Origin: Bradyrhizobium sp. BR 10289
Lineage (GTDB): Bacteria; Pseudomonadota; Alphaproteobacteria; Rhizobiales; Xanthobacteraceae
Direction: 5' to 3'
Assembly: GCF_019455385.1 (NCBI RefSeq)
Contig: NZ_JACOFR010000019.1
Coordinates: 62,001-126,000 of the forward strand
DNA: 64,000 nt
Shown here: positions 28,437 through 33,035 of the stretch, piece after piece
How the letters are laid out: every line of letters starts with the position of its first letter
Numbering within the stretch: the stretch's first letter is position 1
The notes under the pieces: generated by a model
What the model was told of the DNA's origin: nothing
Database searches by the model: none
What the model saw: only the letters and a program-made list of their open reading frames with translations
Made by a program: the position numbers and the translations under genes

Positions 28437-29663
28437 ATGCGCCTCGTTCCGCGAGGACGTGGGCTTCGCGATCCCGACTTGCGGGATCGCCTCTACGAAT
28501 TGCTGGAGCACGATCCCTTGGCCTATTCGGCCGGGTCGCGCTTCATCCAGATCATCATCAGCGTCATCGTGCTCAATGTCGCCGCGATGATCCTCGCCTC
28601 GGTGCCGGAGCTGGACGAGCAATACGGCACGTTGTTCTCGGCGATCACGATCTTGTCCGTGATCGTGTTCGCGCTGGAATATGCCGCGCGGCTATGGACC
28701 GTGGCAGGACACACCCAGCGCAAAGGCTCGGCCGTCGCCGACCGGCTCGGCTATATCTTCTCTGCGCTCGGCATCATCGACCTCATGGCGTTCCTGCCCG
28801 CCGCGGTCGTGCTGGTCACCGGCCGGCATGCGACGCTGGCCGCGCTCGGCGTGCTGCCGTTCTTCAAGCTGATCCGCTATTCACCCGCGATGCGCTCGCT
28901 GCTCGCCGCTGTGCATGCCGAGCGGCGAGCGCTGATTGGCTGCGTCGTCATCCTGACCGGCGCGGTGCTGACCTTCGCCTCGCTGCTCTACGCGATCGAG
29001 CGCGACGTGCAGCCGGATAAGCTCGGCACCATTCCGCAGGCGATGTGGTGGGCGATCGTGACGCTCGGCACGGTCGGCTATGGCGATGTCGTGCCGCTGA
29101 CGCCGCTCGGGAAGATCATCTCCACCTTCGCCATCATCAGCGGTTTTGCCATGATCGCGCTGCCGGTCGCGATCATCTCCACCGCGTTCGCCGAGGAAGT
29201 GAAGCGTCGCGATTTCGTCGTGACCTGGGGCATGCTGGCGCGGGTGCCGCTGTTCTCGCATCTGTCGGCCGCGGAGATCGCCGATATCATGCGGCTGCTC
29301 CGCGCGCGCACCATCGAGCAGGGCGAGGTCCTGGTCCGCCGCGGTGATGCGGCCTCGTCGATGTATTTTATCACCGCCGGCGAGGTCGAGATCGCGCTGC
29401 CGAGCCAGCATGTGCGGCTTGGCGACGGCACCTTCTTCGGCGAGATCGCGCTGCTGCACAAGACAAAGCGCAGCGGGACGGTCACGGCGAGGCGCAAGAC
29501 GCGGCTGCTGGTGCTCGATGCCCAGGATTTTCACGCTCTGATCGCGCGCATGCCGACGCTCGCCGAGCACGTCCACACCACCGCCAAGGCGCGGCTCGCC
29601 GACACCGGCGATCTCGCGCTGGCTGAGCTCGCACAGGGAGAGCAGGAAAGCTCGGATCGCTGA
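28437..29663 (+). CDS. Cyclic-nucleotide-gated potassium channel
   Basis: A 408-residue six-helix channel. S1-S4 lie in about 38-160 and the pore in 200-217, with the selectivity filter TVGYGD at 212-217. The last inner helix is 230-252. The C-terminal cyclic nucleotide binding domain (about 265-385) carries the phosphate-binding cassette 'FFGEIALLHKTKRSGTVTA', with Arg345. This is the architecture of MlotiK1 of Mesorhizobium loti, which binds cAMP; homology is inferred from the layout and motifs. The S4 segment has few positive charges, so it is probably not voltage-gated. It starts five bases after alaS. Confidence 0.9.
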   Translation: MRLVPRGRGLRDPDLRDRLYELLEHDPLAYSAGSRFIQIIISVIVLNVAAMILASVPELDEQYGTLFSAITILSVIVFALEYAARLWTVAGHTQRKGSAVADRLGYIFSALGIIDLMAFLPAAVVLVTGRHATLAALGVLPFFKLIRYSPAMRSLLAAVHAERRALIGCVVILTGAVLTFASLLYAIERDVQPDKLGTIPQAMWWAIVTLGTVGYGDVVPLTPLGKIISTFAIISGFAMIALPVAIISTAFAEEVKRRDFVVTWGMLARVPLFSHLSAAEIADIMRLLRARTIEQGEVLVRRGDAASSMYFITAGEVEIALPSQHVRLGDGTFFGEIALLHKTKRSGTVTARRKTRLLVLDAQDFHALIARMPTLAEHVHTTAKARLADTGDLALAELAQGEQESSDR

Positions 29664-30272: not shown

Positions 30273-31487
30273 TTATGCCGCCAACGCTTTTGTGAGGTTC
30301 TCGGCGACCTTGTCCAGGAAGCCGGTGGTCGAGAGCCAGCGCTGGTCGGCGCCGACCAGCAGCGCGAGGTCCTTGGTCATGTAGCCGGCCTCGACGGTGT
30401 CGACGCAGACCTTCTCGAGCGTGGAGGCGAACTTGGCGAGCTCGGCATTGTTGTCGAGCTTGGCGCGATGGGCGAGGCCACGGGTCCAGGCGAAGATCGA
30501 CGCGATCGAGTTGGTCGAGGTCTCCTTGCCCTTCTGGTGCTCACGGTAGTGGCGGGTCACGGTGCCGTGGGCAGCTTCTGCCTCGACGGTCTTGCCGTCG
30601 GGGGTGAGCAGCACCGAGGTCATCAGGCCGAGCGAGCCGTAGCCCTGCGCGACGGTGTCGGACTGCACGTCGCCGTCGTAGTTCTTACAGGCCCAGACAT
30701 AGCCGCCGGACCATTTCAGCGCCGAGGCCACCATGTCGTCGATCAGGCGGTGCTCGTAGGTCAGGCCCTTGGCGTCGAACTCCTTCTTGAACTCCTTGTC
30801 GAAGATCTCCTGGAAGATGTCCTTGAAGCGGCCGTCATAGACCTTCAGAATCGTGTTCTTGGTCGAGAGATAGACCGGGTAGTTGCGCAGCAGGCCGTAG
30901 TTGAACGAGGCGCGGGCGAAGTCGATGATGGAGTCGTCGAGATTGTACATCTCCATGGCGACGCCGGCGCCGGGAGCCTTGAACACCTCCTTCTCGATCA
31001 CGGTGCCGTCCTCGCCGACGAACTTCAGCGAGAGGGTGCCCTTGCCCGGGAACTTGATGTCGGTGGCGCGGTACTGGTCGCCATAGGCGTGGCGGCCGAT
31101 GATGATCGGCTTGGTCCAGCCAGGAACGAGGCGGGGCACGTTCTTGCAGATGATCGGCTCGCGGAAGATGCAGCCGCCGAGGATGTTGCGGATGGTGCCG
31201 TTCGGCGACTTCCACATCTGCTTGAGGTTGAACTCCTTCACCCGGGCTTCGTCCGGGGTGATGGTGGCGCACTTGACGCCGACGCCGACCTTCTTGATCG
31301 CCTCGGCGGCGTCGATGGTCACCTGATCGTTGGTGTGGTCGCGGTACTCCATGCCCAGGTCGAAATAGAGCAGCTCGACATCAAGGTAGGGGTTGATCAG
31401 CTTGTCCTTGATGTACTGCCAGATGATCCGGGTCATCTCGTCGCCATCGAGTTCGACGACGGGATTGGATACCTTGATTTTTGCCAT
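30273..31487 (-). CDS. icd: NADP-dependent isocitrate dehydrogenase
   Basis: A 404-residue enzyme of the eukaryotic-like (type II) NADP-IDH group. It converts isocitrate and NADP+ to 2-oxoglutarate, CO2 and NADPH. The start '[26 protein letters not shown]' and the substrate region '[22 protein letters not shown]' are typical, as is '[35 protein letters not shown]' near the C-terminus. It is monocistronic and ends at the 30206-30231 terminator. Confidence 0.97.
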
Positions 31488-31835: not shown

Positions 31836-33035
31836 ATGTCGGGGACTGACAAGAGCAAGGCGGGCCTGTCCCTCGACGGTCCCATCGTGATCCTGGTCGA
31901 GCCGCAGCTCGGCGAGAACATCGGCATGTGCGCGCGCGCCATGGGCAATTTTGCGCTGGGCGCCTTGCGCATCGTCAACCCCCGCGACGGCTGGCCCAAC
32001 ATCGCGGCCCAGCGGGCGGCGGCGGGCGCCGACCACATTCTGGAAAAGGTCGAATTGTTCGACACCGTGGAGCAGGCGGTGGCCGATCTCGATTTGCTGT
32101 TCGCCACCACCGCCCGGCCGCACGACCAGGCCAAGCCGGTGGTCGGACCGGAAGCCGCGGCCGGCGAGATCGCCGGGCATGTTGCGGCTGGCGGCAAAGC
32201 CGGCATCCTGTTCGGCCGCGAGCGCTGGGGCCTGACCAACGAGGAGGTCGGGCTCTCCAACCGCATCATCACCTTCCCGGTCAATCCGGGCTTTGCCTCG
32301 CTGAACCTTGCCCAGGCCGTGCTGCTGGTCGGCTATGAATGGTTCAAGCGGGCCACGTCCGGGGCGCTGCCGCATGCCATGCCGGAGCGCTCCGAGCGCG
32401 CCTCGCAGCACCAGATGCAGGCCTTCTTCGACAATCTCGTGCGCGAGCTCGACAAGGTCGAATTTTTGCGTCCCGCCGAGAAGCGCGACACCATGCTGGT
32501 CAATTTGCGCAACATCTTCACCCGGATGGAGCCGACCAAGCAGGACATGCACACCTTGCACGGCGTGGTGATGGCGATCGCGGAAGGGCGCAAGGGCCCG
32601 GCCAAGGGCGGCGTGCTCGACGGCGAGCAGGCGACGCGCCTGCGCGCGCTGCTGGCGGAGCACGGCCAGGGCGGCGGCGTGCCCGACAGCGGCTCGACCG
32701 TGCGCGGCCTTGCCCGCCTGCTCCGCCGCAACCCGACCGACGCCGAGCGCCTGCTCTGGCAGGCGCTCACGCGGGACCGCCGCTTTGCCGGCCAGTTCAA
32801 GCGGCAGACGCCTGTGGGCCGCCACATCCCGGACTTCGTCTCGTTCCCGCACCGGATCGCGATCGAGCTGGTCAACCCGGGCGAGGGTGAGACCATTGCG
32901 GCGGACCGCGCGGGGCGGCGGACGTGGCTGAAGGCGCGGGATTATCGGGTGATCGACATTCGCGCGGCCGACGTGGAGCGGGATCTCGAGACGGAGCTGG
33001 CGCGACTGCAGGGGATGATGGAGCAGGGCGCTTAG
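31836..33035 (+). CDS. TrmJ-type RNA methyltransferase fused to a DUF559-like domain
   Basis: A 399-residue protein in one continuous frame. Residues about 15-255 are a SPOUT methyltransferase of the TrmJ group: 'PIVILVEPQLGENIGMCARAMGNFAL', 'GILFGRERWGLTNEE' and the knot-like 'ITFPVNPGFASLNLAQAVLLVGYEWFK'. TrmJ makes 2'-O-methylated nucleotides at position 32 of tRNA. Residues about 287-395 match DUF559, a Vsr-like endonuclease-fold family: 'RLLRRNPTDAERLLWQAL', 'GQFKRQTPVGRHIPDFVSF', 'RIAIEL', 'WLKARDYRVIDI'. The catalytic-type Asp333 and Glu344 remain, but the 'DGGQH' of active members is replaced by 'VNPGEGE'. The ATG follows 'GCGAAACCAG'; no other methyltransferase gene is near. Confidence 0.85.
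   Translation: MSGTDKSKAGLSLDGPIVILVEPQLGENIGMCARAMGNFALGALRIVNPRDGWPNIAAQRAAAGADHILEKVELFDTVEQAVADLDLLFATTARPHDQAKPVVGPEAAAGEIAGHVAAGGKAGILFGRERWGLTNEEVGLSNRIITFPVNPGFASLNLAQAVLLVGYEWFKRATSGALPHAMPERSERASQHQMQAFFDNLVRELDKVEFLRPAEKRDTMLVNLRNIFTRMEPTKQDMHTLHGVVMAIAEGRKGPAKGGVLDGEQATRLRALLAEHGQGGGVPDSGSTVRGLARLLRRNPTDAERLLWQALTRDRRFAGQFKRQTPVGRHIPDFVSFPHRIAIELVNPGEGETIAADRAGRRTWLKARDYRVIDIRAADVERDLETELARLQGMMEQGA

Follow-up and report, generated by a model that had tools for sequence, protein, structure and literature searches.

A predicted TrmJ-type tRNA methyltransferase fused to a DUF559 domain with a replaced active-site set in Bradyrhizobium and related bacteria

Genes and domains at the trmJ locus

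We analysed a window of 64,000 nucleotides from Bradyrhizobium sp. BR 10289, in which one reading frame on the forward strand is open from the ATG at 31836 through the stop codon ending at 33035 and encodes a protein of 399 aa. Two Pfam domains are found in it above the cut-off: SpoU_methylase at residues 17–167 (E 9e-23) and DUF559 (PF04480) at residues 291–392 (E 1.6e-15; 57.4 bits against a gathering cut-off of 20.6). The initial annotation, according to which a single frame joins a complete SPOUT methyltransferase to a DUF559 domain, is thereby confirmed. The PF04480 profile also matches all 24 fused tails of a set of relatives (A1; E up to 1). The features of the locus are the following:

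31836..33035, + strand: trmJ–DUF559 fusion gene, 399 aa plus stop; two Pfam domains; relatives of 394–415 aa at 69 loci
31884..32336, + strand: SPOUT (SpoU) methyltransferase domain, residues 17–167; from Pfam, TIGR00050 and TrmJ structure alignment
32337..32597, + strand: helical C-terminal domain (CTD) of TrmJ, residues 168–254; from alignment to 3onp and 5gra
32598..32699, + strand: linker, residues 255–288, with the fused-only motif GPA[KR]GGVLD..LR.LLAE (with variants); from comparison by eye
32700..33011, + strand: DUF559 putative pseudonuclease domain, residues 289–392, predicted Vsr-like PD-(D/E)XK fold; from Pfam and predicted structure
32865..32891, + strand: lost DGGQH site, residues 344–352 (ELVNPGEGE); active-site D346 replaced by V and H350 by E
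32907..32909, + strand: R358, in place of the invariant active-site Asp of stand-alone DUF559 proteins
30273..31487, − strand: icd, divergent neighbour marking the trmJ locus

The divergent neighbour is named from its sequence and is presumably the isocitrate dehydrogenase gene. An ORF at 28437–29663 (+) resembles, judged from its sequence, a potassium channel with a cyclic-nucleotide-binding domain. No tRNA genes were found within the window. One TrmJ-like gene was found in this genome; two further matches in the genome cover the tail only and are stand-alone DUF559 genes.

A two-domain protein of the same kind, 394–415 aa long, is encoded at 69 loci selected as fused: the window gene, its 28 best (near) relatives and 40 loci chosen to span genera. 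A second copy of the window gene (L006) and L024, which is the same gene as L066, were excluded from this set. Compared by eye, the linker motif is common to the fused proteins, with variants in family f17, and its full form is found in 0 of 30 unfused TrmJ proteins. A linker helix is predicted at residues 263–278 with low confidence.

The methyltransferase part

The first part of the protein scores 171.2 bits with TIGR00050 (TrmJ/COG0565; the TrmJ/YjtD family of NCBIfam), for which the cut-off is 167.15, and misses the cut-off of the E. coli-type TrmJ equivalog NF011694 (113.5 bits vs 280). The solved TrmJ chains 3onp and 5gra align with it through the helical CTD, up to residues 249–257, and the full-length predicted model matches TrmJ structures. 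Residues N28, R34, E129, S155 and N157 are invariant in all 69 fused proteins. Based on the alignment and numbering by hand, R34, E129, S155 and N157 are the equivalents of R23, E116, S142 and N144 of E. coli TrmJ, the catalytic roles of which are in part assumed here. The gene product is predicted to be a tRNA 2'-O-methyltransferase, with position 32 as its predicted site of action.

The SPOUT domain and the catalytic positions are shared with TrmJ of E. coli, P. aeruginosa and Z. mobilis (tRNA Cm32/Um32 methyltransferases), and the chains of E. coli and Z. mobilis also have the helical CTD; unlike the fused protein, none of the three enzymes has a third domain. The CTD of E. coli TrmJ is reported to be positively charged and essential and to help RNA binding, and TrmJ CTDs are not exchangeable between species (PMC9508554).

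Predicted fold of the tail

The structure prediction of the tail had been named beforehand as a possible refutation of the nuclease-like assignment, and it came out in favour of that assignment. Modelled alone (from residue 276) with AlphaFold2, the tail is confidently predicted to have a Vsr/DUF559 PD-(D/E)XK-like fold (pLDDT 90.3, pTM 0.82), with the order helix-helix-strands-helix-strand-helices. In the full-length model (mean pLDDT 69.4, pTM 0.47) confidence is low outside the tail, and the blocks from residue 301 onwards lie at 78–93. One alignment used as input for structure prediction drew on 80 Bradyrhizobium loci, two of them incomplete, from whose 78 full proteins 39 were taken, and on 15 of 18 viral DUF559 proteins, the three left out being those with in-frame stops; a second input consisted of 17 + 15 sequences. 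TrmJ relatives were also sought in viral contigs to deepen the alignment and none was found.

In a Foldseek search with the tail model, the top solved match is 3hrl with E 1e-4, the sole match below 0.001, followed by I-Bth0305I (1.1e-3). The VIA-align Z scores are 14.2 for 3hrl (1.7 A rmsd over 93 residues), 13.0 for I-Bth0305I and 11.1 and 10.4 for Vsr. After Vsr come Toxoplasma and Tetrahymena mitoribosome chains (Z 9–10.4), which we guess to be RAP domains. The RAP profile of Pfam gives no match to the tail at E up to 10.

Active-site residues of the tail

In the Caulobacter DUF559 protein VsrA, residues E73, D102, D115, H119 and D124 have been proposed to match the Vsr active site (Matthey et al. 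2026, PMC12907096). Compared by hand, their spacing fits E304, D333, D346, H350 and D358 of the tail, the last gap being longer in the fused proteins. The stand-alone set used for comparison comprises 46 rows (43 distinct) from the same bacterial family, picked by PF04480 or by likeness to the tail and at least 85 aa long, a choice which favours intact copies. The complete five-residue site (E-D-D-H-D) is found in 0 of 69 fused proteins vs 46 of 46 stand-alone ones, which lends support at the sequence level to the earlier proposal that the tail has ceased to act as a nuclease. Among weaker-scoring stand-alone loci (20 loci, three of them broken, leaving 17 full frames), all five residues are present in 13 of 17 and the His together with the last Asp in 15 of 17.

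Of the 69 fused proteins, 67 show the pattern E-D-x-x-x and the other two E-D-D-x-x. E304 and D333 are kept in every fused protein, D346 in two, and H350 and D358 in none: H350 is replaced by E in 65 proteins and by Q in four, and D358, which is D in all 46 stand-alone rows, by R in 68 of 69 (L100 has a gap there, or A in another alignment). At position 344, E is found in 43 proteins and D in 24, and the acid is lost in two (L093 and L099). As had been noted from the window sequence, its protein keeps Asp333 and Glu344 and has lost the motif DGGQH of stand-alone members, residues 346–350 reading VNPGE. Nearly all fused proteins also lack R374 and N377, two residues that every stand-alone row has.

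Other positions differ in the opposite direction. R290, G291, R298, N299, R305, W364 and R368 are variable in stand-alone DUF559 proteins and nearly fixed in the fused ones, and F317–A318 are also among the conserved residues of fused proteins; the RR pair at 315–316 is common in stand-alone DUF559 as well. The fused tails carry a net charge of +2.3 vs +4.1 for stand-alone DUF559; a gain in positive charge, which would have favoured RNA binding, was looked for and not found.

Two fused proteins of genus g44 (L100 and L215) still read ELDDG at the lost motif and have lost the His and the last Asp; they are possibly an intermediate. One g44 protein with ELDDG branches first among the fused tails as the tree is drawn (support for the others 93/82), and the methyltransferase tree leaves this order open. 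Unfused DUF559 proteins with a broken site exist too, since two of the weaker stand-alone frames have lost D333 and the catalytic His. These proteins (L254 and L255, from genomes G053 and G009) lie outside trmJ, are alike, and perhaps represent a second, unfused line of pseudonucleases.

Distribution of the fusion across genomes

Among the matches listed, the fusion is found in well over a hundred genomes, and its occurrence is far beyond chance. It occurs in a part of the window's family and in family f17; H350 and D358 are lost in all 69 fused proteins and D346 in 67 of them. Of the 198 genomes of the window's family, 153 (counted by hand) have a best match with E 1e-103 or better. The matches listed for this group extend to residue 340 or beyond, except in G064, where the contig ends; three of its genomes (G044, G096 and G172) are outside the match list, and G044 was read later. 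A further 32 genomes, belonging to genera g2, g7, g14, g19, g23 and g41, have best matches between 1e-67 and 1e-85. TrmJ was read from 12 of these 32: 11 proteins are complete, 265–298 aa long and tail-less, and one is cut by a contig end. Ten of the 198 genomes match weakly (best 3.7e-46) and three have no match.

Two genomes of genus g11 were also looked at. G010, rated 100% complete, has several DUF559 matches but lacks a TrmJ orthologue, its best match to the methyltransferase being at E 4.8e-4; in G054 (81% complete) nothing matches the fusion.

At the level of the order, family f17 carries the fusion in 10 of 10 genomes, and none is seen among the matches listed for the other 271 genomes outside the window's family. 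In the class, two of 389 genomes show it among the matches listed, and both belong to the window's genus. In 396 genomes of the phylum, searched with a profile built from the tail alone (at most 11 candidates scored per genome), 12 fused genes score at least 135 bits and the best other DUF559 listed scores 86.8. In this sample the fused type of tail is seen only fused.

The best 80 named relatives of the tail all belong to Bradyrhizobium, except for one record labelled Frankia sp. RB7 (L154). This record carries the fusion gene with a tail 92% identical to that of the window protein, like neighbouring Bradyrhizobium records, and the genome behind it is probably mixed or wrongly labelled. A spread through phages or plasmids was considered and rejected: phage records give no match to the tail at E 1e-5, viral contigs contain no relative of it, and the 11 plasmid records that match do so in the methyltransferase part only, over at most 38% of the query.

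Origin and selection

All fused proteins lie on one side of a branch both in the tail tree (45 fused and 43 stand-alone sequences, few columns; support 100/100) and in the tree of the methyltransferase part (46 fused, 30 unfused; support 99/94). With a midpoint root, the clade of unfused proteins from the same family adjoins the fused ones in the methyltransferase tree. icd is found near the fused trmJ in 25 of 40 loci; of the remaining 15, six are too short to judge, and the other nine lack it although about 3 kb is available on either side. It is near trmJ in 12 of 12 unfused loci of the window's family. Most simply, the tail would have been gained in a single event, in place, at the icd-linked trmJ locus. 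A free DUF559 gene beside trmJ, as a donor of the tail, was sought in the 12 unfused loci, within about 1.5 kb on each side (less in one), and none was found.

Concerning selection, the median dN/dS values of the methyltransferase, the CTD and the tail are 0.068, 0.040 and 0.072 among the 21 pairs from seven close genomes, and 0.169, 0.075 and 0.182 among the 28 pairs of a wider, eight-genome set. Purifying selection acts on the tail as it does on the methyltransferase. The mean column entropy over the 69 fused proteins is 0.85 bits for the methyltransferase, 0.83 for the CTD, 1.18 for the tail and 1.63 for the linker: the tail is more variable across genera than the methyltransferase, yet constrained. 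The initial annotation had called the tail decayed, a label which is wrong because the tail evolves at a dN/dS of 0.072 vs 0.068 for the methyltransferase and its substitutions are nearly fixed. We rejected a recent decay or a pseudogene on the basis of the dN/dS, the protein length and the near-fixation of the substitutions. As far as the sequences can tell, the tail is a uniformly re-tooled and selected pseudonuclease, not a decaying nuclease and most likely not an active one either.

Discussion

The fusion itself has been known since 2007, from a paper on the SPOUT superfamily which we take to be that of Tkaczuk et al. That paper describes a few alphaproteobacterial COG0565 proteins with a C-terminal PD-(D/E)XK (DUF559) domain, with bll5746 of Bradyrhizobium japonicum as exemplar, treats the tail as a putative deoxyribonuclease with stand-alone orthologues as its relatives, and asks what the role of the nuclease domain is and whether it has any link to methylation (PMC1829167). 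bll5746 has the architecture and the genus of the window protein. The two were matched by description, not by sequence; bll5746 is very likely the orthologue of the window gene, since the genome has one TrmJ and loci labelled B. japonicum carry the fusion. In contrast to the 2007 description, the active-site set is missing here in 69 of 69 proteins and the tails form a branch of their own. What is new is the loss of this set, which was not in print within the literature searched: no other paper on fused TrmJ–DUF559 proteins was found by titles and the beginnings of abstracts, most subscription journals being outside the search. The 2007 paper also reports the COG0565 protein ELI_05635 of E. 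litoralis, with an N-terminal GIY-YIG domain (PMC1829167), and nuclease-type domains seem to have joined the COG0565 family at least twice.

The tail shares its fold and the first E and D with stand-alone DUF559/Vsr-like endonucleases (Caulobacter VsrA, NGO0050 (3hrl) and E. coli Vsr), but these keep the active-site D, H and D that are replaced in the fused tail. The C-terminal domain of RecC is, as in fused TrmJ, an inactivated nuclease within a larger enzyme, although presumably of a different subfamily from the TrmJ tail. It is a PD-(D/E)XK domain reported to have lost catalysis and to have been reused inside that enzyme (PMC1185551); unlike fused TrmJ, RecC acts on DNA, in RecBCD. FASTKD4, a RAP-domain protein, also has a Vsr-like fold with an altered site: N is found where Vsr has the catalytic H69, and its authors conclude that it binds RNA without cleavage (PMC11879112). 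Unlike the fused TrmJ tail, FASTKD4 is a eukaryotic mitochondrial protein with no methyltransferase joined to it.

The best explanation, to which we give about an even chance, is that the tail is a non-cleaving accessory module of TrmJ which contacts or positions the tRNA. A DUF559 domain would have joined TrmJ once, in place, in the ancestor of the part of the family that contains Bradyrhizobium; it would then have lost its nuclease chemistry and stayed as a folded accessory module, with its old nucleic-acid-binding surface contacting and positioning the tRNA behind the TrmJ CTD. Such an extra domain of nucleic-acid type behind the CTD would be well placed for added tRNA contacts, and may thus affect methylation. 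The RNA-binding or target-finding role suggested in the initial annotation is plausible by analogy with FASTKD4, the closest precedent. The parts of the explanation differ in strength: the tail is very probably not a nuclease, while its contact with the tRNA on behalf of the methyltransferase could go either way, the net charge, lower than in stand-alone DUF559, speaking against it. Methylation as such does not require the tail, since a tail-less TrmJ is found in unfused relatives both within the family and outside it.

Instead, the tail may serve the structure of the enzyme or stabilise its dimer, held in place by the conserved linker helix and making no direct RNA contact, which we consider possible but rather unlikely. 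The linker motif confined to fused proteins, the conserved W364, F317–A318 and G291, and a net charge that is not raised would all fit packing; however, arginines (R290, R298, R305, R358 and R368) make up roughly half of the positions fixed in the fused proteins, and the unfused sister enzymes manage without a tail. A tail that still cuts, perhaps tRNA, with a rebuilt active site of E304, D333, E/D344 and E/Q350 together with R358, is improbable. Because acids remain at E304, D333, E/D344 and E/Q350, an altered metal site is conceivable, the first two being present in 69 of 69 proteins, the third in 67 and the fourth in 69, and an active site of a new type has been reported for a PD-(D/E)XK family (PMC551604). 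Against it, the DUF559 site has lost H350, D358 and, in 67 of 69 proteins, D346, the classic (D/E)XK Lys is absent at 346 except in L087, and L093 and L099 have no acid at 344. That such a rebuilt site would destroy tRNAs unmethylated at position 32, as a tRNA-level counterpart of restriction-modification, or would be the relic of one, is highly improbable.

We give hardly any credence to a recent gene-fusion accident with a tail drifting towards loss. Drift would account for the lost active-site residues, for a DUF559 score of 60.7 bits in the fusion vs 128 in the stand-alone copies of the genome and for the higher entropy of the tail; it is contradicted by the tail dN/dS and by the fused-genome matches listed, which have no internal stops, and the length held in 69 loci and the single origin common to many genera also stand against it. 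Just as little can be said for a second, internal start yielding a free DUF559-like protein, so that one gene would give two products. There is a GTG at codon 289, but no Shine-Dalgarno-like run was seen by eye in the 15 bases upstream of it, residue 289 is other than V in 15 of 69 proteins, and no free version of the subfamily stood out in the 396 genomes.

The non-cleaving accessory module thus remains our preferred reading of the tail. The comparison answers the question raised in 2007 with a sharp expectation, namely that the tail would be non-cutting, kept by selection and most likely serving the methyltransferase. If this is true, the fused TrmJ would hold a bacterial Vsr-like domain turned into an RNA-handling module, comparable with the inactive Vsr-like site of the mitochondrial FASTKD4.
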